Positions 1 to 37,489 are shown, numbered from the stretch's first letter. The stretch is 64,000 nt of DNA from Brachyspira hyodysenteriae ATCC 27164 (GCF_001676785.2 NZ_CP015910.2:1612001-1676000), one strand, 5' to 3'. Notes: a model not told the origin generated them from the letters alone. Numbers and translations are program-made.

Positions 1-390
1 TAATCCAGTTAAACTATGCACAAAATTATATGCTGCTATAAAAAACGGTATCTGTATTAAAAGCCCTAATGTACCTCGAAAAGCATATATTGTTTTATAA
101 CCATTTATTCTCTGACAGGTTCTTATTAATAAATATCTCTGATCTCCTTTATATACAGCCTTAATATTATCTATCATAGGCTTCATTTTATCTTGAATAG
201 CTCTTTCTTTAGTCTGCCAAGATTCTGCTATGTTATATAAAGGCAGAGATAAAAAATTGATACATAAACTGAGTAAAAATAAACTAATACCGCTGCTTGA
301 TCTAAATTCATTATTAAACAAGTAGTATAATATTTCTATTATGAATTCTATAGGATATATTGTAATATTATAAAGCATATCAAAAAACAT
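1..390 (-). CDS. YidC-like / alkaline-phosphatase fusion protein, copy C (partial, cut by window edge)
   Basis: Reading in from position 390 on the minus strand gives 130 codons that run off the window. The N-terminus starts MFFDMLYNITIYPIEFIIEI and aligns almost residue for residue with the first 130 residues of the two paralogues starting at 9953 and 13393, including LSLPLYNIAESWQ, the KMKPMIDNIKAVYKGDQRYL cytoplasmic stretch and the LGLLIQIPF membrane segment of YidC/Oxa1-type domains. The phosphatase half seen in the paralogues would lie outside the window and is not shown here. A weak GAGAG precedes the ATG, and the repeat-bearing leader of copies A and B is absent. It is the last gene on this strand after licCA-eutH. 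The paralogy is certain; the function of the full protein is not. Confidence 0.8.
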   Translation of the reverse strand, partial: MFFDMLYNITIYPIEFIIEILYYLFNNEFRSSSGISLFLLSLCINFLSLPLYNIAESWQTKERAIQDKMKPMIDNIKAVYKGDQRYLLIRTCQRINGYKTIYAFRGTLGLLIQIPFFIAAYNFVHSLTGL

Positions 391-514: not shown

Positions 515-1639
515 TCAATTATCATTTTTTAGAACCATTTTAGATACAAAATAAGCTACAATTATAGCTGTTATACCTCCTACCAATTTTGCTACTATCA
601 TAGGAAATATCATATTTCTATATTCTCCTCCAGCGTAACCTGCAGTAAATCCTAAATGATCTCCAAATGTAAAAGCAGCACTAACGGCAAAAGCACAATT
701 TATAATTTTTGCCTGATTATTCATATCTTTCATTATATTAAACATAGGTATATTATTAGCAAGAGTTGCAACCAAACCAGCCGCACCTATATCATTCATA
801 CCTAATTTTTTACCAACAGCTTCCAAAGGTTTTGATGCCACTTTAGTAAGTACAAATACAAGCGGAAAAGCACCTGCCAAAACAAAAGCTATACTTGCAA
901 CTGTAGTTACAGCATCAGATATAGGAGACATTGTAACTGTTTTATTATCTATAGTAAATTTTATTATTTGAATTCCTGTTAATGCTTCTATCACAGCAAG
1001 AACTAAACCTATAGTAATTAATATAACTAAAAATTTAGAAAACAAATCAAATATTTTTATTAGAATATCTCTTATAAATATTAATCCTAAAGCAAGAAAT
1101 ATTGATACTATAATTATTGGTATAAGATTTTTTATTAAAAATATGATTCCATACCCTGCAGCAAGTCCGCCAACAAAAGCACCTATAGGTATAGTAATCA
1201 TACCAGAGGCTATTCCTAAAGCTAAATATTTATGATCTTCTTTATTAATAATACCAATAGCAACAGGTATACTAAAAACTATAGTAGGTCCCATCATAGC
1301 TCCAACTATAAAAGCTGAAAATTTTCCGGCATTTATATCCTGAGCAAACTCTAATGCTAAAGGAGCACCGCCCATATCATTAGCAAGTATTGTTGTTGCA
1401 AACATTGAAGGGTCTGCACCTAAAGCAGTATATATTGGAATGATAATCGGTTTTAATAATGCTGCTATTACAGGAGCAAGACATATAATACCAATCATAG
1501 ATAAAGCCAAAGCTCCCATAGCATTGAACCCAGCTTCAAACTGTTCTCCAAGGCCAAATTTATTGCCAATAATTTTATCTATAGCTCCAATGACCATAAA
1601 TATAATCATCAAATATAGTATTATTTCATTTATACTCAT
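515..1639 (-). CDS. eutH: EutH-type ethanolamine permease
   Basis: The 374-residue polytopic membrane protein begins MSINEIILYLMIIFMVIGAID and carries the hallmark EutH stretches FEAGFNAMGALALSMIGI, LANDMGGAPLALE, MMGPTIVFSIPVAIGII and KYLALGIASGMITIPIG. It is slightly shorter than enterobacterial EutH (about 400 aa). EutH carries ethanolamine across the inner membrane. No ethanolamine ammonia-lyase or microcompartment gene lies nearby. Instead the gene starts 22 nt after the licC-licA fusion and is probably cotranscribed with it, with GGATA about 6 nt before the ATG. This context suggests ethanolamine uptake for CDP activation and glycan decoration rather than catabolism, which is inference. 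The family call is strong. Confidence 0.9.
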   Translation of the reverse strand: MSINEIILYLMIIFMVIGAIDKIIGNKFGLGEQFEAGFNAMGALALSMIGIICLAPVIAALLKPIIIPIYTALGADPSMFATTILANDMGGAPLALEFAQDINAGKFSAFIVGAMMGPTIVFSIPVAIGIINKEDHKYLALGIASGMITIPIGAFVGGLAAGYGIIFLIKNLIPIIIVSIFLALGLIFIRDILIKIFDLFSKFLVILITIGLVLAVIEALTGIQIIKFTIDNKTVTMSPISDAVTTVASIAFVLAGAFPLVFVLTKVASKPLEAVGKKLGMNDIGAAGLVATLANNIPMFNIMKDMNNQAKIINCAFAVSAAFTFGDHLGFTAGYAGGEYRNMIFPMIVAKLVGGITAIIVAYFVSKMVLKNDN

Positions 1640-1661: not shown

Positions 1662-3119
1662 TTAATTAAAATGAAAATAGGATAAATTTTTATGAAGTCC
1701 GGATATATGATATCTCATATACTCATAAGATTTATTCATAATTCCCCATAAAGACCATATATAATTATGTATAATTTGTGCTTTTCTCACTCTAGTATCA
1801 TCTAAACCATTATATGATTTTAATAATTTAAGACGTCTTTCATCATCAATATCAGATTCACATACAAAACTAGCTATATCTAAATAATTAGAAGTAAAAC
1901 CAGAATATTCAAAATCTATTATCTTTACATCATTTCCATTATACAATATATTGCCAAATAATAAATCTAAATGACATAATACCTTTTCATCTTTATCTAA
2001 TTCTTTTGCTGCTTTATGAATAAATTCTTTTTCTTTTTCTGTAACCAAACTTATAGGTACTAATTCTTCATATTTTTTTATTTTATTAAACATAAGTAAT
2101 GGTACAAATCCAGGATTATCCTTTAATTTAATTTGATGCAGCTGTTCTAATCTTTTCATAAAAAGAGATAAAAACTTTTCATCTATATCATCAAATTCTA
2201 AATCTTTATATCCATCTAAATAATTAGTTATTTTAATATCATAATCAAAGAACATACTTTTAGGAGCAATATCTTCAGAAACTAATGACATAATATGTTT
2301 TTCTGCTGGTCTGTCAATAAACTTTTCTGTACCTAATCCAGGAATCCTTATTACTTTTTTATCACCATTAAAAGTTATTTTATAATTATAATTAGTAAGT
2401 CCTTTTAATCTAATCGCTTCACCATTATCAGAACATTGTTTAGCGATATCTTCAAAAGTTAATGTATTAGTCATGATTGCATCTTTGAAAGAATCAACTT
2501 CTGTTACAATATCTTCTGCCTCACTGATATAAAAGTCTATTCTATTCAATGCTCTAAAAACAGCATATTCCCAATATTCATCATCTGTACAATTATCAAG
2601 TTCTTCTTTTATAGTATCAACATATTTACCAGCAAAATAGGCAATTCCTGTCTCACCATATCTTCCGCTAGTAGCATCTTTAATAATCTTTATAAGCTTT
2701 TTTTCTTCATCAACAATATATTCCCAAACTATAACATTATTAATTTCTTGTGATAAGAATTGACATTCATTAGGTTTTATATATTCAAAAAAAGATTTTT
2801 TTATATATAAATCTCCATTCATTATTATGGTACCATTAGTAATTTCATCTTTTACCAATTTTAATGAAGCACTGCTATTTTTAGAAGCAAAATCTGTAGA
2901 TACTACCTTTTTAAACCCAAGCTTTTTTTGTAAAGGATCAAATAATTCATGTTTATAGCCTGTAACAACAGTAATATCATCTACACCGCCTTCTCTAAGT
3001 ATATCGATAGCATTTTCTAATATAGTTTTTCCATGTATCTCTAATAATGGCTTAGGTTTTACTAAAGTCATAGGCAAAAGTCTTGTGCCTCTACCGGCTG
3101 CAAGTATTATAGCTTTCAT
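1662..3119 (-). CDS. licC-licA (fusion): Bifunctional nucleotidyltransferase (LicC-like) - choline/ethanolamine kinase (LicA-like)
   Basis: This 485-residue protein has two domains. Residues 1 to about 230 are a sugar-phosphate-type nucleotidyltransferase with KAIILAAGRGTRLLP, KPKPLLEIHGK and MNGDLYI, as in CTP:phosphocholine cytidylyltransferase LicC. Residues from about 250 to the end are a choline/ethanolamine-type kinase with the HxDxxxxN catalytic loop (CHLDLLFGNIL) and the metal-binding IIDFEYSG. In Haemophilus and Streptococcus these activities are separate proteins; the fusion would make CDP-choline or CDP-ethanolamine in two linked steps. AAGGA lies about 9 nt before the ATG, and a good promoter (TTGATA, 17 nt, TATAAT) sits at 3153-3181. 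eutH follows in the same operon. Which amino alcohol is used cannot be read from the sequence, but the EutH partner favours ethanolamine. Confidence 0.88.
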   Translation of the reverse strand: MKAIILAAGRGTRLLPMTLVKPKPLLEIHGKTILENAIDILREGGVDDITVVTGYKHELFDPLQKKLGFKKVVSTDFASKNSSASLKLVKDEITNGTIIMNGDLYIKKSFFEYIKPNECQFLSQEINNVIVWEYIVDEEKKLIKIIKDATSGRYGETGIAYFAGKYVDTIKEELDNCTDDEYWEYAVFRALNRIDFYISEAEDIVTEVDSFKDAIMTNTLTFEDIAKQCSDNGEAIRLKGLTNYNYKITFNGDKKVIRIPGLGTEKFIDRPAEKHIMSLVSEDIAPKSMFFDYDIKITNYLDGYKDLEFDDIDEKFLSLFMKRLEQLHQIKLKDNPGFVPLLMFNKIKKYEELVPISLVTEKEKEFIHKAAKELDKDEKVLCHLDLLFGNILYNGNDVKIIDFEYSGFTSNYLDIASFVCESDIDDERRLKLLKSYNGLDDTRVRKAQIIHNYIWSLWGIMNKSYEYMRYHISGLHKNLSYFHFN

Positions 3120-3508: not shown

Positions 3509-4735
3509 TTGGTATTAGGAGCAGGAACATTCACTAAAGCTGCCTATTTAAAAGATGGTTTTTATGTTCCTATGCAGGAATATATGAATGTAACACACAC
3601 ACAAATTGGTTTAGCTATGTCAATATATGGTATAGTACAAGCATTTGGAAACTCATTATCAATTTACATATCAGATAGGTTTTCAAAAAAAATTCTAGTT
3701 CCATTCGGTCTTATTGGGGTTTCATTAACAGGTTTTTATCTAGCTACATTTCCAAATTATATTGGAATTTTAATAGCTTGGGGATTATTTTCTTTATTCG
3801 CTGAAGTTATATCTTGGCCTGTAATATTAAAATCTATTAGATTATTAGGAAGAGATAATGAACAGGGAAGACTATTCAGTTTTTTAGAACTTGGAAGAGG
3901 TATTGTAGATGTTTCTGTTGCTTTCATTGGTCTTAGAATATTTATATTATTAGGTTCAAATGCTTTAGCATTAAGAAGTACAATCATATTTTTTTCAATA
4001 ACTGTTATGATAGCTGGAATTTTATCATATTTTTTACTTGAAAATGATTCAATCAAACTAGAAGATGAACATGGTAATAAAATTTCCAAAGATAGAGTCG
4101 TATTAAATGGAATTATAAAAGTATTAAAAAATAAAGAAATATGGCTTGTTTCTTTAACTATATTCTCTGTATATTCCGTGTACTGCGGTATAACATACTT
4201 CATACCATTTTTAAAAGATATATATGGGGTACCATTAAAATTTCTAGGAATTTATGGAATTATTAATCAATATGGATTAAAAATAATAGGAAGTCCAACT
4301 GGAGGAATATGTTCTGATAGAATATTTAAATCACCAACTAGATATATTAGAATCGCATTTATATTGTCAGCAATAACAATTATAACATTCATACTATTAC
4401 CGCATGAACATATGAACAAATATTTTTATCTAGGTATGATATTAACATTAAGCTATGGAATAATTATATTTTCTATGAGAGCCATATATTTTGCCCCAAT
4501 AAATGAAATAAAAGTTCCCAAAGAAATAACAGGTACTGCTATGTCTGTAGCATGTATGATAGGATATTTTCCTAGAAGCTTTATTTACACTTTATATGGA
4601 TATATATTGGATAACAATAACAGTATAAAAGGCTATAATATTATATTTTTTATAATGGCATGCTTTTCAATACTAGGAATATTAATATCAACTATTTTAC
4701 TAAGAAAAATAAAAAAGCTAAATCATAATAACTAA
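3509..4735 (+). CDS. Major facilitator superfamily transporter (start region out of frame)
   Basis: The protein has about 12 hydrophobic segments and an MFS-type loop between TM2 and TM3 (SDRFSKKILVP). The continuous frame opens at a TTG (3509) with no ribosome-binding site. The in-frame codons before it (KKKWITFSIL) look like native N-terminus, and a TTG at 3465 with a spaced AGG sits in another frame across a run of 11 A. The complete protein is therefore probably about 424 residues from 3465 and needs one more A. The substrate is unknown. It lies between the licCA-eutH operon and a second LicC-like gene, which suggests import or export connected with amino-alcohol decoration. A palindrome at 4736-4764 follows. 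Family call good; the present expression state is uncertain. Confidence 0.8.
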   Translation: MVLGAGTFTKAAYLKDGFYVPMQEYMNVTHTQIGLAMSIYGIVQAFGNSLSIYISDRFSKKILVPFGLIGVSLTGFYLATFPNYIGILIAWGLFSLFAEVISWPVILKSIRLLGRDNEQGRLFSFLELGRGIVDVSVAFIGLRIFILLGSNALALRSTIIFFSITVMIAGILSYFLLENDSIKLEDEHGNKISKDRVVLNGIIKVLKNKEIWLVSLTIFSVYSVYCGITYFIPFLKDIYGVPLKFLGIYGIINQYGLKIIGSPTGGICSDRIFKSPTRYIRIAFILSAITIITFILLPHEHMNKYFYLGMILTLSYGIIIFSMRAIYFAPINEIKVPKEITGTAMSVACMIGYFPRSFIYTLYGYILDNNNSIKGYNIIFFIMACFSILGILISTILLRKIKKLNHNN

Positions 4736-4775: not shown

Positions 4776-5510
4776 TTAATATTTCAATACTTCACTTAAT
4801 TTATTTAATAAATCATCATCATTATCACATGCATTAATAATATCTTCTCTTGTCATTAATCCTTCTAATATAGCATCTTTTGCTGAATCTATTTCAACTA
4901 TAAAATTAGGTATTTTAGTTAAATATAAAGGATAATCATCAATTAAACTATAAACTATATCTTCCCAAAATTCTTCATCTTTTGCAAATGGTAACCTTTC
5001 TGATACTGCTTTAGCCATATCACCTACTAAATACATCATTCCTGTATCACCATATCCAGAAGTAGATTTCTTAATAACTTTAATAATTCTGTCGTCTGAA
5101 TCTCTTGATATATATCCATCTTCTTCACCTTTTACTATCTGTTTAGATATTATTTGAGAAACATTTGGTTTTATATATTTAAAAATATTTTCTTTTATAT
5201 AAATATCTGCATTAATAATTAAAGAATCATCAAGAATATCCCTTACTAAATTAAGTGAACTACTGCTATTTTTTTTATCGTACACATTAGATACTACTTT
5301 TTTCAAATTATATTTATCTACATAATAATCAAATGATTCATTCATATATCCTGTAACTATTGTAATATCATATATATTATTAGAATGTAAAAATGCTATA
5401 TTTTTTTCTAGAAGAGCCTCACCATTAACTTTAAATAATGGTTTTGGTTTTTTTAAAGTAAAAGGATATAATCTAGTTCCTTTTCCAGCTGCAAGTATTA
5501 TAGCTTTCAT
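4776..5510 (-). CDS. LicC-like nucleotidyltransferase
   Basis: A single-domain nucleotidyltransferase of 244 residues starting MKAIILAAGKGTRLYPFTLK, with KPKPLFKVNGE, SLIINADIYI and VEIDSAKDAI. It is homologous along its length to the N-terminal half of the LicC-LicA fusion (shared KNSSSSLNLV and STSGYGDTGM type stretches). I place the start at 5510 because AAAGGA lies about 10 nt upstream; a GTG at 5531 would add seven residues but has no ribosome-binding site. By family it activates a phosphorylated alcohol or sugar with CTP or another NTP. It starts 27 nt after the glycerophosphotransferase-family gene and is probably cotranscribed with it, so it may supply that enzyme's CDP substrate. The substrate is not determinable from sequence. 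Confidence 0.85.
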   Translation of the reverse strand: MKAIILAAGKGTRLYPFTLKKPKPLFKVNGEALLEKNIAFLHSNNIYDITIVTGYMNESFDYYVDKYNLKKVVSNVYDKKNSSSSLNLVRDILDDSLIINADIYIKENIFKYIKPNVSQIISKQIVKGEEDGYISRDSDDRIIKVIKKSTSGYGDTGMMYLVGDMAKAVSERLPFAKDEEFWEDIVYSLIDDYPLYLTKIPNFIVEIDSAKDAILEGLMTREDIINACDNDDDLLNKLSEVLKY

Positions 5511-5537
5511 AAATATAAATTCCTTTAACACAAATTA

Positions 5538-6818
5538 TTAATTTAATTCCTCAAGCATTTTACTTAAAACTAAAGCTCCATTTTTAGCGGCCTCACCTCT
5601 GCATTTGTAAGCTTCATCCTTTGCCTTCAAAATATTATCTTTTAATGAAGTATTATTTATGGTATCATTTACTATATTTGATATATTAACAAAATTATTC
5701 TCATCTAAAGAAACTGTTATTTTAGGTAAAGTTTTTAATGTCCATGATTCTTCTTTTAATTCAACAGCATCATAACCTCTTTTATCAAAAGTAAAACTAG
5801 GTATTATAGTAGGTTTCTCAAAAAGAAAAGCATAATCTAATATTACTCCTGAAAAATCAGATATCATAACATCAGCCCTTGATAATGAATAAATATTATC
5901 TCTATTAAAATCCCATTCTATATTAGAGTTATCCTTATATTTATTTTTTAATCTTTCAAGCATATCTTTTTCTACTATACTAGATTGAGGATGAGGACGT
6001 ATAATAACATAATATCCGTTTTCTAAAATAGGATCTATTACTTTTTCTCCAAATCTTGTAAGAAGTCCATTCATACCCCAAGAAGGAGCTATTAAAACAG
6101 TTTTTTTATTTTCTACTTTAGTAATAGACTTTAAAGCTTCTTCTTTCTTTTTATTAAGTTCATCTAAATAAGGACTTCCTATAATTTCTAATTCTTTTAC
6201 TTTGGTTCCTCTAGTTTCTTCTAGTTCTCTTATATCAGCTATCTGATTTTCTCCGCTTAATAATGCAGCATCAAAAAAATCTAAAGAATATAAACAATAC
6301 ATAGCAGCTTCATTTGGGGCATGAAATATATGCACATACTTCTTTACACCTTTAGAGCGTTTTAATTGAAACACATCCAAATTAGGAGTTGTCATTAAAC
6401 AAATATCTGCTTCTATAAAATTCAACTTAGCATAAGCCATATTGCCAACACCAATAAACTCTGTATGAAGTAAATCATTCTTTATTTCAAATATAGGATC
6501 ATCTTCACTTGAACTATAGTATATTACAGGTATTTCTAATTTTATTAACTCTTCTATAATAGGCTTAAATACATTACAATATCTTTTATCTTCACCATAA
6601 ATTATTATTCTAGCCTTTTTAGAAGCTTCTGTATCTATGGATTTATTTTTAGAAAATGACATAGTTTTTAATTTTATCAAAAGAGCTTTGGATAAAAAGA
6701 AAAGTGTTCCTATTATTCCAAAAAGTGCTGAAAAAAGTAAACTTCCTGTACCAGGATCTATATATCCGAATACATTACTTTGTAATAATATAAATAATGC
6801 AAATATTGTAATTAACAT
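5538..6818 (-). CDS. CDP-glycerol glycerophosphotransferase family protein (TagB/TagF-like)
   Basis: The 426-residue protein has an N-terminal hydrophobic segment, a YIDPGTGSLL motif at about residue 19 followed by a second membrane segment, and a soluble GT-B-like domain. This domain carries VLIAPSWG, the VIIRPHPQS histidine-proline motif and VMISDFSGVILDYAFL, as in the Glyphos_transf family that transfers glycerol- or ribitol-phosphate from CDP-alcohols onto a glycan in Gram-positive wall teichoic acid synthesis. In an organism without such a wall it more likely adds a phospho-alcohol to a lipooligosaccharide or a capsule-like polymer. The licC-like gene follows in the same operon and copy B of the YidC-phosphatase gene lies upstream on the same strand. 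Family call good, acceptor unknown. Confidence 0.8.
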   Translation of the reverse strand: MLITIFALFILLQSNVFGYIDPGTGSLLFSALFGIIGTLFFLSKALLIKLKTMSFSKNKSIDTEASKKARIIIYGEDKRYCNVFKPIIEELIKLEIPVIYYSSSEDDPIFEIKNDLLHTEFIGVGNMAYAKLNFIEADICLMTTPNLDVFQLKRSKGVKKYVHIFHAPNEAAMYCLYSLDFFDAALLSGENQIADIRELEETRGTKVKELEIIGSPYLDELNKKKEEALKSITKVENKKTVLIAPSWGMNGLLTRFGEKVIDPILENGYYVIIRPHPQSSIVEKDMLERLKNKYKDNSNIEWDFNRDNIYSLSRADVMISDFSGVILDYAFLFEKPTIIPSFTFDKRGYDAVELKEESWTLKTLPKITVSLDENNFVNISNIVNDTINNTSLKDNILKAKDEAYKCRGEAAKNGALVLSKMLEELN

Positions 6819-6953: not shown

Positions 6954-9953
6954 TTAATATGAATCAAATATAAATTCAACCTCTTTAACAATATCTTTAT
7001 CCTCTAGATCTGTTACAAATTTTTTCCAATTATTAGTGTCAAATATATTATCTTTAACATGATAAAATTTTCTAAAAGAAAACATATTTGAATATTGTAA
7101 CCCTCCTGCCATTCTTTAGAAAATATAATATAAGCTCCATTAGTTTTGTAATCATTAGTTATGATTTTATTATTGAATGGATTTCTAATATTATGTATAT
7201 GTTTTGTTACTAAATACGGCACATCAGCAACTGTTGAAAAATTAGTATCTATAATTAATTCACCCCTAGAATTAAAATCTTTATATATTAATAAAGCATT
7301 AAATAAATTAATAGTTAATTTATAATCATCATTAATGTCATAATTATTAAGTCCATAGAGAGGAAATCCATGATCAGAAACAACTATTATTTTTGTATTA
7401 TCATATAAATTATTATCTTTTAAATAATTTATAAAATCAACTATAACATTCATAGAAGCAATATTAACATAATAATGTCTAACAGAATTATCATCTTTAT
7501 ATAAAAATATATCATCATCATTAACTTTAGAAGCTGATATTCCAGGCAAATAATTTACATTAAAATAAGATGGAAAATGAGTTGCCATATTATGTAATAT
7601 ATTATAATAATTTACATCATCATGAATTTTTACTAATTTTTTGGTATATGATAAAAGTGTATAATAATAAATACTAGAATTAATAAAACTATTTACATTA
7701 AAATTGAACCATTTTTTATCATCATAAAATACGTATCTTAAATTAATTGGAAGCATTCTAAATATTGAAAATCTTATGGATACTTTTTTTAAATATAATT
7801 TGCTGTTTTTCTTCTCTATTTTTATATGATTCAATATTCTTTTCAACATGATAATCATTATAGGATGATATATTACTATAATTTTGAAATATACTTAAAT
7901 CTGGTATATCCGAAAAATTAGCATATGCAGGATCCAATATTGAAGATTTATATCCATAATTTCCCAATACTAATGGTATCATTAATAAAGATTCATTATG
8001 CTTTTCTTTTATTATATAATTACCATTTGTACTCATTTCATATGGTAAATAATCATATCCACAATATATAGAACCTATTCCTAAAGTTGTACTACAAAAA
8101 GAAACATTATTTTTATAAAATACAAAACCATCAAATTTAGTTTTAAATTCGGGGTATTTATTAATTGCATCATACCAATAAGATGAAACTGCTCTATCTA
8201 ATATAAAGACAAAAATATTTTCACCATTCTTAGACAAATTAAACATTTTATTATCATCTATATTATTATTAACATTTATTTTTTCTAATTGTAGCTGTTC
8301 TGTTATTATTCCTCTAATATTAAATACAGACACAGAAAATAAAGCTAATAATATAATAAAATAAATATTAATAAAAAACATAAGTCTTTTTTTCACAATA
8401 GATAATGTAAATAATAAAATTACAGATAATATTAATATTATATTAAATATTATTTGATTAGTAGATGCTTTTAATAATTCAGTATTATCAAATATAAAAT
8501 CCGCATCAATATTTACATAATTACCTGTCATAATAAATGTATTAATTAATACTATCCCAGAAATAAAAATTATAATTAAAGTTAAATAAGATTTAATTTT
8601 ATCTGAAAATAATAAATATATAAATAAAGGGTAAAATAAAAATAATCCTATACTTATTGATAACGTATTTATAATTAAATAATATGGCTGCATAAATTCT
8701 TTAGGGGAATCATATATTAACGATGTAATTATAAATAATCCTGATAATATAGTGATAACTAAACATGAAACAATAATTAATTTATTTCTATATTTTATAA
8801 AAGAATATTCTATATCCTCAGTTTTTAAAATAAATTTATAAATAATTTTAATGTTAATTATAAAAAAAAGTAATAATAATATAATATAAATATTAATTGA
8901 ATAAGATTTAATACTTAAACTATAAATTATCTCTATATTTTCATCAATATTCTCTATATTTTTATTTAATTCAACAATTGCAAATTTTGTATTAGCCCCT
9001 GTAATTTCTATATTATCTATATATTTTGAAAGCTTGTTAGTATTTATTTTTAAATCAAATATATCACTACTTCTAAATATATTACTATAATACATTACTT
9101 TGGCAATATATTTAGTATTAATAGAATCTTCAGAATTAGGTTTAAATTCAGATAAATATCCCTTTCTCTCTATCTTAGATAAAACAATAAGTAATACAAA
9201 CAATACTGTAACAATAATAAAAAATATATTATAAGCCTTTAATAATTTATATCTATTTCTTACAAATATTTCATATAATTTAAACTCTATTATTATATTT
9301 TTTATAAAAGAAAATAAACAATTTATAGTCCAATAAAACAAAAGTCCTGATGGAGAATTATAAAGAAGCAATAAAAATATTAATGATACTACATATAAAG
9401 GTAAACTCTCTTTGAACTTTAATTTTCTAGAATAAACAAAACCAGCTAATAAACTAAATAAAGTCATTAAAAATGGAAGCAGATTAATACTTATATTACC
9501 AATATGAATTAAGGCATCTGGCTTAGATAAATCTTTGATAAATAAAAAACTCTGACCGCTTAATCCTGATAAACTATGTACAAAATTATATGCCGCCATA
9601 AAAAATGGTATCTGTATCAAAAGTCCTAAAGTACCACGAAAAGCATATATTGTTTTGTATCCATTGATTCTTTGACAAGTACGTATTAATAAATAACGTT
9701 GATCTCCTTTATATACAGCCTTTATATTATCTATCATTGGCTTCATCTTATCCTGAATGGCTCTTTCCTTAGCCTGCCAAGATTCTGCTATATTATATAA
9801 TGGAAGCGATAAAAAATTTATACATAAACTGAGTAAAAATAAACTTACTCCATAACTTGATTTAAATTCTACACTGAATAAATAAAATAATATTTCTATA
9901 ATAAATTCTATTGGATATATTATAATATTATAAATAATATCAAAAAAGATCAT
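6954..9953 (-). pseudogene. YidC-like / alkaline-phosphatase fusion, copy B, with two frameshifts
   Basis: Residues 1-220 form a YidC/Oxa1-like domain (LGLLIQIPFFMAAYNFVHS, FLFIKDLSKPDALI, SPSGLLFYWTIN). Further membrane segments follow, then an alkaline-phosphatase/sulfatase-superfamily domain (ENIFVFILDRA, later IIVVSDHG). Frame one (from 9953) stops at 7758. The phosphatase domain continues in another frame to 7013, and the tail homologous to the intact copy (FYHVKDNIFD) lies in a third frame ending at TAA 6954-6956. Removing one A from the A7 run (7784-7790, T in the plus strand) and adding one G to GGG near 7103 would restore about 1000 codons, matching the 997 of copy A. It may be a decayed paralogue, a slippage-controlled gene or sequence error. 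The N-terminal 850 bp are nearly identical to copy A. Confidence 0.8.
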
Positions 9954-10054
9954 AATACCCCCAAGATATTAACTTTTCTGAGTTTATGATTTTTTTGATA
10001 AACAAATGATATGTTTTTTCTATGTAATAAAAAATATATATAAAATTTAAGGAC
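9205..10054 (-). repeat. Duplicated block, copy B (YidC half plus leader, near-identical to 12645-13494)
   Basis: With a constant offset of 3440 bases this block aligns without gaps to 12645-13494, with only scattered substitutions. It covers the YidC-like domain, the start codon and the end of the leader ORF up to the tandem repeat. Below 9205 the two genes diverge sharply. Confidence 0.85.
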
Positions 10055-10281
10055 TGTTGATTGTTGATTGTTGATTGTTGATTGTTGATTGTTGATTGTT
10101 GATTGTTGATTGTTGATTGTTGATTGTTGATTGTTGATTGTTGATTGTTGATTGTTGATTGTTGATTGTTGATTGTTGATTGTTGATTGTTGATTGTTGA
10201 TTGTTGATTGTTGATTGTTGATTGTTGATTGTTGATTGTTGATTGTTGATTGTTGATTGTTGATTGTTGATTGTTGATCAT
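9940..10281 (-). CDS. Repeat-bearing leader ORF upstream of copy B (113 aa)
   Basis: From ATG at 10281 (GGA about 9 nt upstream) the frame runs through a 32-unit heptanucleotide repeat, giving repeated INNQQST heptapeptides. It then encodes a unique tail ending GYYDLF and stops 14 nt inside the copy B gene. The promoter at 10308-10336 places transcription start near 10300, so codons upstream of 10281 are unlikely to be used. No known domain is present. The peptide itself may be irrelevant: the frame in which ribosomes leave the repeat decides whether they reach the ATG at 9953, which has only a weak G-rich site of its own. Translation is unproven. Confidence 0.4.
   Translation of the reverse strand: MINNQQSTINNQQSTINNQQSTINNQQSTINNQQSTINNQQSTINNQQSTINNQQSTINNQQSTINNQQSTINNQQSLNFIYIFYYIEKTYHLFIKKIINSEKLISWGYYDLF
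10055..10278 (-). repeat. Heptanucleotide tandem repeat, 32 perfect copies
   Basis: The plus-strand unit TGTTGAT is repeated 32 times without interruption (224 bp). The unit is not a multiple of three and contains no stop codon in any frame on the minus strand, whereas the plus strand has TGA once per 21 nt. Uninterrupted arrays of this kind change length by polymerase slippage. Confidence 0.95.
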
Positions 10282-10399: not shown

Positions 10400-13393
10400 T
10401 TATTCCCACATACGCTCATCAAATTCTAATGGTATTTCCTTCATACTTTTGTCTTTTTGCATCTCAAATTTAGACCAGTTATTTATATCGAATATATTAT
10501 CTTTTACTCTATAAAATTTCATATTATTTCCTTTCCAAGGCAAAGCCATCATATAAATACCATTATTTTTATAATTGTTAGTTATTAACTCATTATTGAA
10601 ATAATCTTTTATATTTGGAATATGATTAACGGTTAAATATGCAATGTCACCAGATGTCATAAAACTATTATTTATTTCTATCTCACCTCTTGAATTGAAA
10701 TCTTTAACCATTAATAAAGAATTATACCAATTTACAAAAAGATTTGTTGAAGAAGAAGTATTAACAAACCACCCATGATCAGAGGCCACTATAATTTTTG
10801 TATTATCATAAACATTATTGTTTTTCAAAAAATCTAATAATTCAATTATTAGATTTAATGCAGCTCCGTTACAATAAAAATGTCTAACACTAAAATCATT
10901 TTTGTAATTTTTCAAATCATCTGAATTTACATCAGTAGTACGGAAATTAGGTAGAAAATTAGAATTATATGCTCCTGTTTCATGTGTAATCATATTATGC
11001 AATAAATTATAATATCTTTCTTTTTCATCTGTAACATTAATATTTTTTTTCAAATATGACATAATAGCATAAGTATAAATACTAGAATTAATTCTATTAT
11101 TATTCATAAACCAGTTTTTATCACTATAAAATGAATGTCTTAGATTAATTGGAAGCATCCTAAATATAGAAAATCTTATAGTCAAATACTTGCTTGTATT
11201 ATCATTTTTAGAATTTACGTTGCCAATATAATCTTTTATTGCATTATCTTCAAATGAAGAATTAGCATAAGCACTTACATTTTGATAATTACTAAATATA
11301 GTAGTATTTACCATATCATAATTACCGTTAATAAAAAGAGGTTCCAAAATACTTGTTTTATATCCATATTTCTCTAATGCCAAAGGTATTGTAAGAATAG
11401 CTTCATTATTTACATCTACTCCATTACTTGTTATACCTTTTGGTGATGTAAAACCATCAAATAAGTCTTTTTTCTTTAGATTATATGCTGAATAATTATA
11501 TCCGCCATATATAGATGACATACTAGAACTTGTATTTAAACCTAAAGATACAGTATTAGGATAAATAACAAATCCGTCTAATTTTGCTTTATATTCAGGA
11601 AATCTTTCTAAAAGATCTAACCAATGTGATGGTATTGCTCTGTCTAAAATCAAAACAAATATATTTTCACCATTTTTTGATAAATTAAATATCTTAGAAG
11701 TATCTATATTATCATTATTATAAGCACTTATTTTCTTTAATTCATTTTGACCTATAATTATATTCTTTATATCAAATATAGAAACTGAAACTAAAGCAAT
11801 TATTATTATAATATATATATTCATTATAAATATAAATTTTCTTTTAATCATTAAAAATAAAAATATAGAAATGATTAATAATATTAAAAATAAATTTAAT
11901 ATTATTTGATTTGAAGATGCTTTTAATAGATCAGTATTATCAAATATAAAATCCGCATTGATATTAATATAATTACCCACCATAATAAATGTATTAATTA
12001 ATACAATTGAAGCTAAACAAACAAATATTATAGTCATTATATTTTTTATCTTATCTGAAAATAATATATATATAAATAATGGATAAAATAAAAATAATCC
12101 TAAACTCATTGATAAATCATTAAAAATCAAATTAAACGGAGATCTAAATTCTTGCGGAGAATTACCTATCAGAGAACTAGGAATAAAAAGTCCAGACAAT
12201 AAAGATATAACCAAACATGATAATAAAATTAAATATTTCCTATTTTTTATAAAAGACTTTTCTACTAAAAAAACATTTAAATTAAATATATTATTAATTC
12301 TTTTTAAATTAAAAAATATTAAAAGAATTAATAATAATACATAGTATGAAATAAAAGTTTGTTTGATAAATAATTTATAATAAAGATTTATAGTACCTAT
12401 ATTTTCTATACTATCTTTTAACTTAACTGTACCATATCGGCTTCCTCTGTATTCAAATGTTATATCAATAACATTGCTGTCAAGTTTATTATTATTTACT
12501 AAAACTCCATATATATCACTATTTCTAAAAACTTTACTGTAATAACCTAAACTAATATTATATGTATAACCATCTATAAGCTTAAAATCTGTTAAATAAC
12601 ATTTTCTTTCTATATTACCTAAAGAAATTAATGATATTAATAATACTGTAATAATGATAAAAAATATATTATAAGCCTTTAATAATTTATATCTATTTCT
12701 TACAAATATTTCATATAATTTAAACTCTATTATTATATTTTTTATAAAAGAAAATAAACAATTTATAGTCCAATAAAACAAAAGTCCTGACGGAGAATTA
12801 TAAAGAAGCAATAAAAATATTAATGATACTACATATAAAGGTAAACTCTCTTTGAACTTTAATTTTCTAGAATAAACAAAACCAGCTAATAAACTAAATA
12901 AAGTCATTAAAAATGGAAGCAGATTAATACTTATATTACCAATATGAATTAAGGCATCCGGCTTAGATAAATCTTTGATAAATAAAAAACTCTGTCCGCT
13001 TAATCCAGTTAAACTATGTACAAAATTATATGCCGCCATAAAAAATGGTATCTGTATCAAAAGTCCCAAAGTACCTCGAAAAGCATATATTGTTTTGTAT
13101 CCATTGATTCTTTGACAAGTGCGTATTAATAAATAACGTTGATCTCCTTTATATACAGCCTTAATATTATCTATCATTGGCTTCATCTTATCTTGAATGG
13201 CTCTTTCCTTAGCCTGCCAAGATTCTGCTATATTATATAATGGAAGTGATAAAAAATTTATACATAAACTGAGTAAAAATAAACTTACTCCATAACTTGA
13301 TTTAAATTCTACACTGAATAAATAAAATAATATTTCTATAATAAATTCTATTGGATATATTATAATATTATAAAATATATCAAAAAAGATCAT
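10400..13393 (-). CDS. YidC-like / alkaline-phosphatase-superfamily fusion protein, copy A (intact)
   Basis: This 997-residue membrane protein has three parts. Residues 1 to about 220 are a YidC/Oxa1-type domain: LPLYNIAESWQ, a charged cytoplasmic hairpin, LIQIPFFMAAYNFVHS, FLFIKDLSKPDALIH and PSGLLFYWTIN. About five more membrane segments fill residues 235-560. Residues 590-960 form an alkaline-phosphatase/sulfatase-superfamily domain opening with NIFVLILDRAIPSHW and closing with the metal-binding DNTKIIVASDHG, presumably in the periplasm. Such domains act as sulfatases or as phosphoglycerol/phosphoethanolamine transferases; the context of CDP-alcohol genes favours a transferase, which is inference. 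The YidC part is shorter than housekeeping YidC and may be a membrane chaperone or scaffold. The start has a weak GGGGGT site and overlaps the leader ORF by 14 nt. Confidence 0.8.
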   Translation of the reverse strand: MIFFDIFYNIIIYPIEFIIEILFYLFSVEFKSSYGVSLFLLSLCINFLSLPLYNIAESWQAKERAIQDKMKPMIDNIKAVYKGDQRYLLIRTCQRINGYKTIYAFRGTLGLLIQIPFFMAAYNFVHSLTGLSGQSFLFIKDLSKPDALIHIGNISINLLPFLMTLFSLLAGFVYSRKLKFKESLPLYVVSLIFLLLLYNSPSGLLFYWTINCLFSFIKNIIIEFKLYEIFVRNRYKLLKAYNIFFIIITVLLISLISLGNIERKCYLTDFKLIDGYTYNISLGYYSKVFRNSDIYGVLVNNNKLDSNVIDITFEYRGSRYGTVKLKDSIENIGTINLYYKLFIKQTFISYYVLLLILLIFFNLKRINNIFNLNVFLVEKSFIKNRKYLILLSCLVISLLSGLFIPSSLIGNSPQEFRSPFNLIFNDLSMSLGLFLFYPLFIYILFSDKIKNIMTIIFVCLASIVLINTFIMVGNYININADFIFDNTDLLKASSNQIILNLFLILLIISIFLFLMIKRKFIFIMNIYIIIIIALVSVSIFDIKNIIIGQNELKKISAYNNDNIDTSKIFNLSKNGENIFVLILDRAIPSHWLDLLERFPEYKAKLDGFVIYPNTVSLGLNTSSSMSSIYGGYNYSAYNLKKKDLFDGFTSPKGITSNGVDVNNEAILTIPLALEKYGYKTSILEPLFINGNYDMVNTTIFSNYQNVSAYANSSFEDNAIKDYIGNVNSKNDNTSKYLTIRFSIFRMLPINLRHSFYSDKNWFMNNNRINSSIYTYAIMSYLKKNINVTDEKERYYNLLHNMITHETGAYNSNFLPNFRTTDVNSDDLKNYKNDFSVRHFYCNGAALNLIIELLDFLKNNNVYDNTKIIVASDHGWFVNTSSSTNLFVNWYNSLLMVKDFNSRGEIEINNSFMTSGDIAYLTVNHIPNIKDYFNNELITNNYKNNGIYMMALPWKGNNMKFYRVKDNIFDINNWSKFEMQKDKSMKEIPLEFDERMWE

Positions 13394-13494
13394 AATACCC
13401 CCAAGATATTAACTTTTCTGAGTTTATGATTTTTTTGATAAACAAATGATATGTTTTTTCTATGTAATAAAATATATATATAAAATTTAAGGAC
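12645..13494 (-). repeat. Duplicated block, copy A (near-identical to 9205-10054)
   Basis: This is the partner of the block at 9205-10054, offset 3440 bases. The high identity stops abruptly just after the YidC-like domain, consistent with recent duplication or ongoing gene conversion of the 5' part only. Confidence 0.85.
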
Positions 13495-13577
13495 TGTTGA
13501 CTGTTGACTGTTGACTGTTGACTGTTGACTGTTGACTGTTGACTGTTGACTGTTGACTGTTGACTGTTGACTGTCAT
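13380..13577 (-). CDS. Repeat-bearing leader ORF upstream of copy A (65 aa)
   Basis: The ATG at 13575-13577 is preceded by AAGGAG at good spacing, the best ribosome-binding site near this gene. The frame runs through 11 heptanucleotide units (peptide unit TVNSQQS) into a tail ending SWGYYDLF and stops 14 nt inside the copy A gene. The tail is almost identical to that of the copy B leader. In the second frame translation would end at TAA directly after the repeat; in the third at a TGA overlapping the downstream ATG as ATGA. This supports a coupling role. No domain is recognisable and expression is unproven. Confidence 0.5.
   Translation of the reverse strand: MTVNSQQSTVNSQQSTVNSQQSTVNSQQSLNFIYIFYYIEKTYHLFIKKIINSEKLISWGYYDLF
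13495..13571 (-). repeat. Heptanucleotide tandem repeat, 11 perfect copies
   Basis: The plus-strand unit TGTTGAC occurs 11 times (77 bp), differing by one base from the TGTTGAT unit upstream of copy B. It is stop-free in all three minus-strand frames. Confidence 0.95.
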
Positions 13578-21894: not shown

Positions 21895-21922
21895 AAGGCT
21901 ATATAATTTTTTATATAGCCTT
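21895..21922. terminator. Bidirectional terminator between clpB and the glycosyltransferase-like gene
   Basis: An 11-bp stem, AAGGCTATATA (21895-21905) with TATATAGCCTT (21912-21922), and a T-rich loop. It sits between convergent genes and abuts the stop codon of the minus-strand gene. Confidence 0.75.
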
Positions 21923-22965
21923 TAATCATTTTTATATTTTAAAATATAATTTAATGATTCTTTTATTTCTTCTATTTTTATATCTTTATAATTAAAATAG
22001 TCTTTTATATTTAGTTTAATCATATTATCAATTTTTAATTTTAAATAATTATCTATAATTTTAATACCTGTTATAGAAATATCATTATATAATTCATTTC
22101 CAAGATATTTATTTAATGAGTTAATATAATAAATACTCATAGAATTTCTAAAATTATCTCTGAGTTTTCTTATGGAAATAAACCAGCCTAATTTTTTAAT
22201 CATTTTTTTAAATTCGTCCAAATAAATAATATCATATATATTTTTTTTATCTCTTAAAGGAATTATAGGATAAATTTTATTTTTAGATTCAAATTCATTT
22301 TCAGAAATTGTATAAAAGTTATATATTTTAGAAAGTATAGAAAAAATACTTTGATCATGTCTATTTTCAATAAATATATCTGCATTTTTAATTTTGGAAG
22401 GACTATCATCAGCTAAAGAAAAATCATCATAATAAACTTGAAGCCATTTTTTTAAAAATTCTATATTCATACTATTTTTTAAAAATAAAAAATAAGTTGT
22501 AAAAATTTGAGGGGTATCTGTAATATTTTGATTATTTAATACATTTAAATAATTAAATAAATCTGATTTTGTCCACTTTTTTTCAGGTGAATTTAAACCT
22601 AATTTAAAACATAATCTACTATTATCTATAACCAAATCCAAATATTCATAAAATCTATCAATACCTTCTTTATTGAAATGACAGCCTATATCAGCATAAA
22701 CTAATATATCATTATCATTCATAGATTCCAACGTTTTAAGAACAATAAATGGTTTCCAACACCAATATCCAAATCCTCTGCTATATACTAATTTAGAACG
22801 GAATGCTTTTTCAAATTTTTCATTGTAAGGTAAATTATATTCATTATAAATAAAAATTTCATCGAATATATTAAAACTCTCTGCTTGTTTTTTAAATCTA
22901 ATTGCGGATAAATATAAATCTAAATTATGGAATGCACATAAATATACTTTTCTATCTTTATACAT
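21922..22965 (-). CDS. Putative glycosyltransferase-like surface-glycan protein
   Basis: This soluble protein of about 347 residues has the pattern RGFGYWCWKPFIVLKTLE followed by DNDILVYADIGC, the nucleotide-sugar-binding-like D-x-G region seen in proteins of bacterial capsule and LPS clusters that resemble GT-A glycosyltransferases. No signal peptide or membrane segment is seen. I favour ATG 22965 (GGGA 6 nt upstream); an in-frame ATG at 22983 lacks a site, and a stop at 22993-22995 limits extension. The gene follows a transcribed 16-unit pentanucleotide repeat within a leader ORF whose stop codon falls 3 nt past the ATG at 22965. The enzyme class is a pattern judgement, and donor and acceptor are unknown. 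Confidence 0.6.
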   Translation of the reverse strand: MYKDRKVYLCAFHNLDLYLSAIRFKKQAESFNIFDEIFIYNEYNLPYNEKFEKAFRSKLVYSRGFGYWCWKPFIVLKTLESMNDNDILVYADIGCHFNKEGIDRFYEYLDLVIDNSRLCFKLGLNSPEKKWTKSDLFNYLNVLNNQNITDTPQIFTTYFLFLKNSMNIEFLKKWLQVYYDDFSLADDSPSKIKNADIFIENRHDQSIFSILSKIYNFYTISENEFESKNKIYPIIPLRDKKNIYDIIYLDEFKKMIKKLGWFISIRKLRDNFRNSMSIYYINSLNKYLGNELYNDISITGIKIIDNYLKLKIDNMIKLNIKDYFNYKDIKIEEIKESLNYILKYKND

Positions 22966-23158
22966 TATACATCCCATAAACATAATAAAAAATTAATTTT
23001 TTTATTATAATAAAATATTTAAAGATATTAAAAAGTTTAATTACTTGACTTGACTTGACTTGACTTGACTTGACTTGACTTGACTTGACTTGACTTGACT
23101 TGACTTGACTTGACTTGACTTGAAGTATATTAGCTAATGCATAAATATTCAACATCAT
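22958..23158 (-). CDS. Repeat-bearing leader ORF upstream of the glycosyltransferase-like gene (66 aa)
   Basis: The frame from ATG 23158 runs through the pentanucleotide repeat (peptide unit VKSSQ) and a hydrophobic tail ending YGMYNV, stopping at 22958-22960, just after the downstream ATG (22963-22965). The predicted transcription start is at or next to 23158, so initiation would be leaderless or further in. In the other two frames TAA occurs immediately after the repeat. No domain is recognisable and translation is unproven. Confidence 0.35.
   Translation of the reverse strand: MMLNIYALANILQVKSSQVKSSQVKSSQVKSSQVKSSQVIKLFNIFKYFIIIKKLIFYYVYGMYNV
23044..23123 (-). repeat. Pentanucleotide tandem repeat, 16 perfect copies
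   Basis: The plus-strand unit CTTGA is repeated 16 times (80 bp; TCAAG on the coding strand). It is stop-free in all minus-strand frames, while the plus strand has TGA every 15 nt. It lies in the predicted 5' leader, about 80 nt before the downstream start. Confidence 0.95.
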
Positions 23159-33434: not shown

Positions 33435-34517
33435 CTATTTTGTGAGTAATTTTATTATTTCTTCATTTTTTCCGTATTCTCTAGCATAATACAATGCATC
33501 ATAATTACCTCTTTTTATACTTTTATCAGCACCAGCATCTAAAAGCATTTTTGTCATTTCTAAATTTCCGCTATGACAAGCCCACATCAATGCGGTCATA
33601 CCATACTTATTTTGAACATTAACATCAGCATTATTTTTAATAAGCACTTTTACAGCATTAATATTATTATAAGAAGCGGCTTCTCTCAATGCAGTATCAT
33701 AATCATAATCTTTATATGCATCACTATCAATCAGCTTTTGTAAAAAAACTTCATTAGTAGAATAGTGTGCAGCATTTATCAATGGAACATTAAGATTAAG
33801 CAAAGTTGATTGATTAAGATCACAAACTTTCAAACTTTTATCCAAAGAATCAGAACCATTTTGAAGTAAAATATCTGCTATATCCTCATGTCCATATGTA
33901 TAAGCATAAATCAAAGCATTTGCATTATTTCTATTTCTTTTATTTATATCAGCTTTATTGGCAATCAAAATTTTTACAGTTTCTTTATAACCTTTCATAA
34001 TAGCATACATTAAAGGTGTTTCTTCATTCTCATAATCTCCATCATAAGCTATATTAACATCAGCTTTATTTTTTATTAATAGTTTTACCATTTCAATATT
34101 TTCTTTTCTATTATATTCTAAGGCACAAAATAATGCTGTCCTTCCTCTAAAGCCCTGATAATCAATATTAGCACCATAACTTAAAAGTAGTTTAACCATT
34201 TCCATATTATTATTATCAACTGCAAGTATCAATGCAGTATCGCCATCACTTACTACAGTATTAACATCTGCCTTATATTTCAAAAGAAGCTCAGCCATTT
34301 CTATATTATTATCCATAACTGCAATCGATAATAATGAAAAATCTTCATAATCAAGATTATTTATATCTCCATTATATTTCTTAAGAATATTCTCAGCTTC
34401 TTTAACATTACCTTCATTCACATATTCTCTTAATCTTTCATAAGCTTTAGTTTTATTATCAGTTTGACTGTATAAGCACAGACTAAATAAAAATAAAATA
34501 AATATTAACTTTTTCAT
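33435..34517 (-). CDS. Exported ankyrin-repeat protein (Ank1)
   Basis: This 360-residue protein starts with a signal peptide (MKKLIFILFLFSLCLYSQ) and has about nine ankyrin repeats, recognisable from units such as GDTALILAVDNNNMEMVKLLLSYGANI and GMTALMWACHSGNLEMTKMLLDAGAD. One repeat near residue 260 is degenerate (IDSDAYKDYDYDTAL). It is a close paralogue of the gene at 40571-41659: both ends are nearly identical in DNA while the middle repeats differ. Ankyrin repeats bind proteins; the periplasmic or surface partner is unknown. AGAGG lies before the ATG. It is the last gene of an operon with two polytopic membrane proteins. Confidence 0.88.
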   Translation of the reverse strand: MKKLIFILFLFSLCLYSQTDNKTKAYERLREYVNEGNVKEAENILKKYNGDINNLDYEDFSLLSIAVMDNNIEMAELLLKYKADVNTVVSDGDTALILAVDNNNMEMVKLLLSYGANIDYQGFRGRTALFCALEYNRKENIEMVKLLIKNKADVNIAYDGDYENEETPLMYAIMKGYKETVKILIANKADINKRNRNNANALIYAYTYGHEDIADILLQNGSDSLDKSLKVCDLNQSTLLNLNVPLINAAHYSTNEVFLQKLIDSDAYKDYDYDTALREAASYNNINAVKVLIKNNADVNVQNKYGMTALMWACHSGNLEMTKMLLDAGADKSIKRGNYDALYYAREYGKNEEIIKLLTK

Positions 34518-34559
34518 AATTCACAAACCTCTTTAAATTATTAAACTTTTATTTATCTT

Positions 34560-35771
34560 TTAAAATACCATTATCATAGGAGCTATAAAAGAAAAAATAA
34601 ATGAGTAAATACCATAAATATAAATGAAGCTATATATTTTATTATTTCCAATCACTGCCTCATTTATATTAATATTATTTTTAAATATTTTTATTATAGA
34701 CTTTATATTTTGTACTATTATATATATTAAATTAATAGCTATTACAGCATTAAGAACTGTAATAGAAATTTCATTTATTTTATTTTCAGAAATAATTACT
34801 CTGTATATGCTTGCTCCTAATACTAATATATTAAATAATAATGCTATTATTGGAAATATTATATACATTGCTTTTGTTATTACTCCAGCTTTATAGTCAG
34901 CTCTTATAAAGTATAAAGTAATAATAGATAAAATTAATAATACATTATAAATTATAAAAGACTTAGTATTGTCAAAAGGTCTTATAGGTTCATATAGTAA
35001 GGCAAAAAATGAAACAAATATTAAAAATGAATATAAAAATAATAATCCTCGAGAAATATATATTGATAAAACAGTTTTGAATCTCTTTTGCACAAAGAAA
35101 AATATAAACGGTATTAAAGTAGATAAATACACAATAAAAATCAAAATCAGTTTTAAGGCTAAGGTATTTCCATGTTCTTCAGAAAAAACAGATAACATTA
35201 AACCAAAAAATACTAATACCATCAATACCAAAAATTCTAGCAATTCTACCAATTCTACCAATTTAATAATTAAGAATAATATTGTTGCTAATAAAATTTC
35301 TGATGCTACAGAAAACAGTATTATATCTCCTAATTTAGTAAAACTATTATATGTATTATTCTTTATATTAAAATTGTTATCAGATAAAACTATTATAATA
35401 AAAAAGATTATAGAAGATAATATACTTTTATTAATCATTATATTAGATTTAAAAAATTCAAGCATATCAGGTATTTCATCTTTTAATGGTGCTGAAGTAA
35501 ATATGCCAAGCAAAAATAAAAGTAAAAATGACAAAAATATTATTAGTATTGTTCTTTTATTAATATTTTCTAAATTACTATCTATAATAAATAAAAATGA
35601 ATAACAAAAAAAGTAAAATACTTGATAATAAAAACTATTAATAATAATTAAATTGTCAGCATTATGATCAATATCATATAATAATATTTGTATACTTATA
35701 GGAAGAGAAGAAATTAGTATTAATACAAATACTAATATATGATATAATCTTTTTTTACTGATGTAGTTCAT
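34560..35771 (-). CDS. Polytopic membrane protein, paralogue 2
   Basis: This 403-residue protein has about 10 membrane segments and is not recognised with certainty. The order of helices and the loop LLYEPIRPFDNTKSFIIYN, then YFIRADYKAGVITKAMY, recall DUF4153-like membrane proteins, at low confidence. The C-terminal 200 residues are nearly identical to the paralogues at 35787 and 41691, while the segment around residues 155-215 is unrelated to theirs. That segment contains a 9-bp in-frame tandem repeat (35233-35259). It lies 15 nt after paralogue 1 and 42 nt before Ank1, so it is presumably one operon. Confidence 0.7.
   Translation of the reverse strand: MNYISKKRLYHILVFVLILISSLPISIQILLYDIDHNADNLIIINSFYYQVFYFFCYSFLFIIDSNLENINKRTILIIFLSFLLLFLLGIFTSAPLKDEIPDMLEFFKSNIMINKSILSSIIFFIIIVLSDNNFNIKNNTYNSFTKLGDIILFSVASEILLATILFLIIKLVELVELLEFLVLMVLVFFGLMLSVFSEEHGNTLALKLILIFIVYLSTLIPFIFFFVQKRFKTVLSIYISRGLLFLYSFLIFVSFFALLYEPIRPFDNTKSFIIYNVLLILSIITLYFIRADYKAGVITKAMYIIFPIIALLFNILVLGASIYRVIISENKINEISITVLNAVIAINLIYIIVQNIKSIIKIFKNNININEAVIGNNKIYSFIYIYGIYSFIFSFIAPMIMVF
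35233..35259 (-). repeat. Imperfect 9-bp in-frame tandem repeat (3 units)
   Basis: Units AATTCTAGC, AATTCTACC, AATTCTACC in the plus strand add three residues each to the variable loop of paralogue 2 (LVELVELLEFL). The other two paralogues lack it. Confidence 0.6.
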
Positions 35772-35786
35772 AAATCTCTCACACTT

Positions 35787-36989: not shown

Positions 36990-37034
36990 TTTTCATAACC
37001 CCTTATAGGTATTTTTATAAATACTTAAAAATGG

Positions 37035-37062
37035 ATTATAACCTATAATTATAAATTGTAAA
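37035..37062 (-). promoter_or_regulatory. Promoter of the paralogue 1 operon
   Basis: TTTACA (37057-37062), 16 nt, TATAAT (37035-37040) on the minus strand. The same boxes with identical spacing recur at 42943-42970 before paralogue 3, so the promoter was duplicated with the gene. Confidence 0.5.
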
Positions 37063-37167
37063 GTAAATACTTAAAATAGTTATATTTTATAAAATACTTT
37101 TTAAGTATATACTGAAAATTTTTAAGTTTGTCAATTGATCCACTTTATATAGATGTTATCTACCTTT

Positions 37168-37389: not shown

Positions 37390-37452
37390 TAAATTTATTT
37401 TTGACAAAATATAGTTGTTTAGGTATATACTAAAAATTTTTAAACAGAAAAT

Positions 37453-37489
37453 AAAAAAGTGCATACATATATAATGCATACACTTTTTT
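37453..37489 (-). terminator. Terminator after the ankyrin lipoprotein gene
   Basis: The stem AAAAAAGTG...CACTTTTTT, extended by GCATACAT/ATGCATAC, lies 9 nt past the stop codon. Nearly the same hairpin follows the other two ankyrin genes at 39279 and 40517. Confidence 0.65.

Follow-up and report, generated by a model that had tools for sequence, protein, structure and literature searches.

A YidC and alkaline-phosphatase-superfamily fusion protein of spirochaetes as a candidate transferase in surface decoration, with repeat-bearing leaders in Brachyspira

What could be gained by joining a YidC/Oxa1-like membrane module to an alkaline-phosphatase-superfamily (AP) domain in a single polypeptide? 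This question is raised by a locus of Brachyspira hyodysenteriae lying in a stretch of 64,000 nucleotides that was analysed as a whole (hereafter, the window). A first-pass annotation of this DNA had described one such chain of 997 residues, had stated that no function was established for a fusion of this kind and had proposed a phospho-transferase or sulfatase tethered to an insertase-like platform serving a surface glycan. In agreement with its second statement, no paper on a YidC-AP fusion was found in searches of open-licence papers. With modest confidence, and from comparisons of sequences and predicted structures, we favour the reading that the protein is membrane-bound and transfers phospho- or phosphono-groups on the export side of a system for surface decoration; in Brachyspira its production would be switched by repeats. 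The complete fusion in the window (copy A) has the following parts:

10400-13393, minus strand: copy A, intact YidC-AP fusion, one ORF of 997 codons
12725-13393, minus strand: residues 1-223, YidC/Oxa1-like module, with Asn46 at the groove Arg position
12359-12724, minus strand: residues 224-345, linker helix and periplasmic beta domain
11699-12358, minus strand: residues 346-565, extra helix and five-helix membrane domain of the EptA/LtaS/PbgA type
10403-11698, minus strand: residues 566-997, AP domain

The ORF has exactly the extent and length first reported, and both of the domains originally named were recovered. The YidC motifs described for residues 1-220 correspond to a Pfam 60KD_IMP (PF02096) match over residues 34-222 (E 2.8e-21, 76.6 bits against a curated cut-off of 35), a match to YidC profiles on which the original reading had been staked. 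The sulfatase/LtaS-like domain with its DHG site corresponds to an AP-superfamily fold at residues ~569-990, with DHG at 872-874. The AlphaFold2 model of copy A (pLDDT 88, pTM 0.81) places five predicted membrane helices (379-411, 419-444, 447-470, 494-516 and 520-561) ahead of the AP domain. This five-helix domain, the beta domain that likewise lies between the two named parts, the heptanucleotide-repeat leaders and the gene neighbourhood are additions to the first description. The beta domain occurs in the long forms (~1000 aa, Brachyspira) and is missing from shorter forms of ~900 aa. Conservation was assessed in an alignment of 70 diverse family members with identities down to 27%. The YidC module is the best conserved region of the family (mean pairwise identity 54%), followed by the AP domain (37%), the five-helix domain (28%) and the linker region (19%).

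The host genome (3.07 Mb, two contigs) holds five family members, A to E. Three paralogues had been claimed for the window; copies A, B and C do belong to the family, but only copy A is complete there. The others are:

7013-9953, minus strand: copy B, adjoining copy A, in which two frameshifts leave the separate ORFs 7758-9953 and 7013-7858
1-390, minus strand: copy C, first 130 codons, the remainder lying beyond the window (G000:C1:1609403-1612390)
C1:324284-326953 and C1:1353460-1356237: copies D and E, distant from the window

One frameshift of copy B falls at a run of A near 7795 and the other near the 3' end; they may be real or sequencing errors. The DNA identity between copies A and B is 94-98% through the leader and YidC module, and drops to 59-75% in 200-base bins after about residue 260. 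The leader and YidC part thus appears to behave as a cassette homogenised by gene conversion ahead of varied downstream halves. Elsewhere in the window (33435-42896), four ankyrin-repeat proteins and three polytopic membrane proteins of ~400 aa form an array of interleaved tandem paralogues.

The fusion is genuine, since full-length homologues across the Spirochaetota show that the architecture is no product of chance or assembly. About 100 such homologues were extracted, nearly all from this phylum, and a phylum-wide search gave strong matches in many families. A scan of the genome collection returned 76 loci, all but two carrying spirochaetal names; many are from Treponema or Spirochaetaceae, with near full-length matches of 24-51% identity. 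The architecture is therefore widespread in spirochaetes and not peculiar to the window. The two exceptions are a 'Bacterium' (L142) and a Dysgonamonadaceae MAG (L108). The latter record (JAIRPX010000110.1), Bacteroidota by name, has two tandem fusion copies and reflects either transfer or a binning error. From our reading of the match table, 15/26 Brachyspira genomes carry fusion members, and the other 11 have mainly an ordinary YidC of ~630 aa together with short weak matches. A plasmid-borne homologue of the fusion was looked for and none was found.

We then considered how far the N-terminal module can be regarded as a YidC. Solved YidC structures are its best sequence matches (~1e-9), and the TIGR03592 scores of copies A and B (84.0 and 85.2) lie on either side of the cut-off (84.3). 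The positive residue of the YidC groove (E. coli R366) is described as strictly conserved (PMC8920935). At the aligned position of the fusion, residue 46, the 70 sequences have Asn (26), Ser (23) or Thr (21) and never a positive charge, whilst the separate YidC of the host has Lys. A defining YidC feature therefore fails, and the fusion is not a canonical insertase; the insertase-like platform first proposed is retained as far as the profile match goes, with this caveat. Loss of the groove charge is nonetheless no proof of lost insertase activity, because the Arg is dispensable if E. coli residue 517 is aromatic or hydrophilic (PMC8920935), and the fusion has an invariant Trp, W208, which we aligned to the Y517 position.

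This bears on the strongest of the alternatives, in which the YidC module would work as an insertase or chaperone dedicated to the enzyme's own helices or to the membrane hairpin of the TagF-like partner described below, and the AP half would be an ordinary phosphoethanolamine-type transferase acting on outer-leaflet phospholipid. The clear profile and fold matches to YidC agree with it, as does W208. However, every Brachyspira genome also carries its own YidC of ~628 aa, so that some reason is needed for fusing a further insertase to a single enzyme, and the groove charge is lost in all 70 sequences; we regard this alternative as unlikely. The transferase reading that we favour assigns the module a different task. 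Lipid scrambling in vitro is on record for E. coli YidC and for other Oxa1 proteins (PMC10491306), which led us to propose that the groove of the fusion handles a lipid head group. This lipid-carrier role is the most novel and the least certain part of the model.

The genes around the fusion point to activated head groups. In the window the neighbours comprise:

5538-6818, minus strand: YIDPGTGS membrane hairpin and TagF-like (PF04464) protein, the fusion family's most constant neighbour
4776-5531, minus strand: LicC-like cytidylyltransferase
1662-3119, minus strand: LicC-like cytidylyltransferase fused to a choline/ethanolamine kinase
515-1639, minus strand: EutH-type ethanolamine (choline?) transporter
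3509-4735, plus strand: MFS transporter, nearest NCBIfam model PgtP, below its cut-off

Neighbours were counted in 57 loci (L095-L151), numbered as non-Brachyspira but including a few Brachyspira records. The commonest is a TagF-like protein of ~415 aa, found in 35/57 loci, with 31 of its members lying within 150 bp of a fusion. No such gene was nearby in the remaining 22, many of which are cut by contig ends. Among the Brachyspira genomes, the TagF-like gene occurs in 13 of the 15 that bear a fusion, the two without it being fragmented, versus 0/11 of those that lack one. Paralogues D and E of the host genome have no such neighbours. The partner in the window passes PF04464 (42.6 bits, cut-off 22.1), and the top PDB match of its model in Foldseek is the teichoic-acid polymerase TagF (3l7l, E 1.7e-12); unlike this fold search, a PDB sequence search with the partner's profile gave no match. 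The YIDPGTGS motif in its N-terminal membrane hairpin is invariant across all 22 aligned members. Promoter and terminator scans gave results no better than shuffles.

The head-group suppliers, in contrast to the TagF-like and fusion pair, vary between loci. In the window the module is choline/ethanolamine-like, consisting of EutH, the LicC-choline kinase fusion and the second LicC-like protein; both LicC-like proteins match LicC (1jyk) best (5e-26 and 2e-23). Nucleotidyltransferases of the LicC/PntC type are present in 27/57 loci, PEP mutase in 10/57 and phosphonopyruvate decarboxylase also in 10/57. At one locus (L125) the neighbour is a PntC-transaminase that scores 906 bits against Treponema denticola PntC (6pd1) and is its clear orthologue. 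T. denticola PntC makes CMP-2-aminoethylphosphonate (CMP-AEP), and the steps beyond CMP-AEP are stated to be unknown (PMC6697681). In Brachyspira alvinipulli (L076) the same core is combined with a phosphonate module, the cluster also holding a gene 88% identical to the MFS transporter gene of the window, and a further locus (L084) carries both kinds of supplier. CMP-activated head-group modules thus appear to be interchangeable, choline/ethanolamine in the window and 2-aminoethylphosphonate elsewhere. As the pair stays constant while the supplier changes, we place the fusion at the transfer step.

The C-terminal half would suit such a step. D584, T621, H804, D872, H873 and K897 are invariant in 70/70 aligned members, and these include the metal-binding residues (D584, D872 and H873) whose loss the first-pass annotation had named as evidence against its proposal. 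In the AlphaFold2 model, D584 directly follows strand 577-583, D872-H873 follow strand 865-870 and T621 forms the N-terminus of helix 621-630; as modelled, this placement is the active-site arrangement of the AP superfamily. It reproduces both the Thr nucleophile of EptA/LtaS-type transferases, located at a helix start after the first metal-ligand strand, and their metal ligands, an Asp or Glu after strand 1 and an Asp-His after a later strand. Going by the helix count of the model, the AP domain would lie outside the cytoplasm. The best solved structures in a Foldseek search with the copy A model were MCR-1, PbgA and LtaS, with LtaP and EptA also listed. The PbgA alignment spans residues 376-994 (Z 20.5), its rmsd of 15.6 being due to domains that are placed differently; since it begins at residue 376, the C-terminal ~620 residues correspond to the whole five-helix and AP enzyme and not to a soluble domain alone. 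In the VIA-align structural list only residues 574-994 are well tested, and the assignment of the YidC part rests on sequence profiles and model topology.

Invariance of D584, T621, H804, D872 and H873 points to a protein that is very probably catalytic, and probably a working phospho-group transferase. The transferase half of the original proposal is thereby strengthened, by the invariant Thr and metal ligands, by the EptA/LtaS/MCR-type fold and by neighbours that include LicC/PntC, TagF-like and glycosyltransferase genes. The same fold and neighbours also bear on a second alternative, an LtaS-type polymerase that would build glycerol-phosphate or a similar polymer from ordinary phospholipid, with the YidC module merely anchoring or stabilising it. 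As such a polymerase would lead one to expect, the best structural matches include LtaS and LtaP, and the constant neighbour is TagF-like. Nevertheless, genes for CMP-head-group activation (LicC, PntC, Ppm, Ppd) abound in the neighbourhoods and the YidC module is conserved far beyond what an anchor would need, and we consider a polymerase decidedly unlikely.

Copy A matches Pfam Sulfatase weakly (18.4 bits); the cut-off of 25 is exceeded by paralogue D (27.8 bits), paralogue E (27.9 bits) and the 3' fragment of copy B (34.2 bits). Although Pfam offers no better name for the AP half than Sulfatase, and sulfatases are numerous among the structural matches listed, a phosphatase or sulfatase removing groups from host or self glycans is very improbable, and the sulfatase option of the first-pass annotation was rejected, because no C/S-x-P-x-R formylglycine motif occurs around residues 612-635, the nucleophile position is Thr in 70/70 members as in the EptA and LtaS transferases, and both the polytopic membrane embedding and the cytidylyl-activation neighbours argue for synthesis.

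In the decoration pathway that we favour, cytoplasmic enzymes would make a CMP-activated zwitterionic head group, which would be CDP-choline or CDP-ethanolamine in the window and CMP-2-aminoethylphosphonate in other species. The TagF-like YIDPGTGS protein would load this head group onto a membrane lipid carrier, and the YidC-fold groove of the fusion would let the head group of the loaded lipid cross the membrane. The AP domain may then take the group on Thr621 with the help of metal and pass it to a surface glycan. A broader interpretation, for which our confidence is low, is that the YidC fold, repurposed from protein insertion, now carries lipid-linked head groups across the membrane and has been joined to the enzyme for which they are the substrate. 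Together with the TagF-like loader it would then constitute an undescribed modular system that puts phosphocholine, phosphoethanolamine or aminoethylphosphonate on spirochaete surfaces, filling the steps after CMP-AEP.

Production of the fusion may itself be variable in Brachyspira, where repeats of 4-7 nt lie ahead of most fusion copies. The relevant features of the window are:

13380-13577, minus strand: leader ORF of copy A, 65 aa, AAGGAG then ATG, in its present phase reaching a stop 14 nt into the main gene
13492-13574, minus strand: heptanucleotide repeat of copy A, 11.9 copies (coding-strand unit GTCAACA) immediately following the leader ATG
13379-13439, minus strand: predicted hairpin of copy A, covering its start codon and GGGGG ribosome site, with pairs that covary across species
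9940-10281, minus strand: leader ORF of copy B, 113 aa from the repeat-adjacent ATG, with its stop 14 nt inside the main gene
10055-10278, minus strand: heptanucleotide repeat of copy B, ATCAACA on the coding strand, 32 perfect copies

Upstream of copy A stands AAGGAGATAAAATG, directly after which the heptanucleotide copies start. The same leader design recurs across Brachyspira with different units (GTCAACA, AACAGCA, GCAAACC, TTCTCAC and the pentamer TCTCA), and the copy number differs between species and copies, from about 5 to 32 (one genome per species). A repeat leader was found in 0/72 non-Brachyspira members and before none of the ~900-aa D-type copies. As in contingency loci, the repeats are perfect and their number sets the reading frame of the leader. 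In most copies the repeat number modulo 3 decides whether the leader stop falls at +4, where ATGA overlaps the main start, between +11 and +14, or 60-100 nt short of that start. Over 13 loci, 21 leader frames are open to the main start, compared with 3.2 on average and never more than 9 when the spacer was dinucleotide-shuffled 2000 times, a contrast to which no formal P-value is attached because the loci are related. A fusion of leader and main protein in the ON state was considered and rejected, since the main frame is closed by a stop a short way before its start.

RNA folding predicts that the start codon and the GGGGG ribosome site are hidden within a hairpin. RNAalifold recovers this hairpin, with C-G/U-A and U-A/C-G exchanges. 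Across 21 distinct sequences, 83.7% of cells pair versus 53-59% with the partner slid, and the covariation score is 0.181 versus at most 0.108 in the slid controls, these sequences being related and not independent samples. The folding z-scores of copies A and B alone are weak (-1.1 and -1.25), and folding becomes convincing only through L050, L055 and the alignment. The simplest reading is a predicted phase variation, in which translation of the leader melts the hairpin. The repeat number would switch the amount of fusion made, as ribosomes in some frames would run through the start-hiding hairpin and open it, and in other frames would stop too early. No paper joining Brachyspira with phase variation and tandem repeats was found in searches of open-licence papers.

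The repeat-leader survey of the host genome covered about 190 kb. Similar leader ends over the main start were seen, in the present phase, at three other host genes with 4- or 5-nt repeats, two of which have leader stops at +4, -72 and +11. Within the window, a leader ORF formed by ACTTG x16 (23043-23122) has its stop overlapping the start of a protein of 347 aa that lacks a Pfam match (21922-22965, minus strand); the other phases of this leader stop 71-75 nt before the start. Tetranucleotide leaders of 30 and 12 copies (L015:7853-7972 and L015:16560-16607; G000:C1 ~2.936 and ~2.945 Mb), with stops at +4, -72 and +11, precede membrane proteins of 950 and 882 aa that share the beta domain of the fusion and have no Pfam match. 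A further leader ORF (L013:3552-3656; G000:C1 ~1.35 Mb), with AACAC x21 and a long perfect inverted repeat, lies before a DUF1796 protein.

With head-group genes adjoining it and a predicted on/off repeat leader preceding it, the fusion is a good candidate for the final decoration step that is still missing. How bacteria interact with a host is influenced by phosphonate and phosphocholine on their surfaces, and the leader and hairpin device predicts a phase-variable surface chemistry in Brachyspira. The TagF-like protein and the fusion form a concrete, conserved candidate pair for transfer after CMP-AEP, linked to an orthologue of T. denticola PntC. Moreover, the family offers a natural test of whether a YidC fold can serve lipids instead of proteins.

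Comparison with known systems places the fusion closest, for its enzyme half, to EptA/MCR-1 and LtaS/LtaP, with which it shares five membrane helices followed by a periplasmic AP domain with a Thr nucleophile and an Asp/His metal site. It differs from them in its additional N-terminal YidC module and is only 10-15% identical to these structures; its first metal ligand is Asp, whereas that of Staphylococcus aureus LtaS is Glu255. PbgA/YejM resembles the fusion in the long structural alignment noted above, but PbgA is not known to be catalytic, whereas the fusion family never varies in its nucleophile and metal residues. Likeness to the YidC/Oxa1/Alb3 insertases extends from PF02096 to the cytoplasmic helical hairpin and the aromatic pair of TM5; in contrast to them, the fusion has no positive charge in the groove and no P1 domain and is covalently joined to an enzyme. 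Its clusters are like the Lic phosphocholine and Pnt phosphonate pathways in their LicC/PntC activation enzymes and head-group suppliers, yet the TagF-like protein and the fusion would occupy the place expected for a LicD-type transferase. Repeat-mediated phase variation of surface genes is exemplified by lic1 and lex2A/lex2B of Haemophilus influenzae, and the Brachyspira leaders likewise carry perfect short repeats whose unit is not divisible by three and which shift the reading frame. Unlike in those genes, however, the repeats of the fusion sit in a separate leader ORF, more than one frame is coupled in most copies, and leader translation is predicted to melt a hairpin that sequesters the start.
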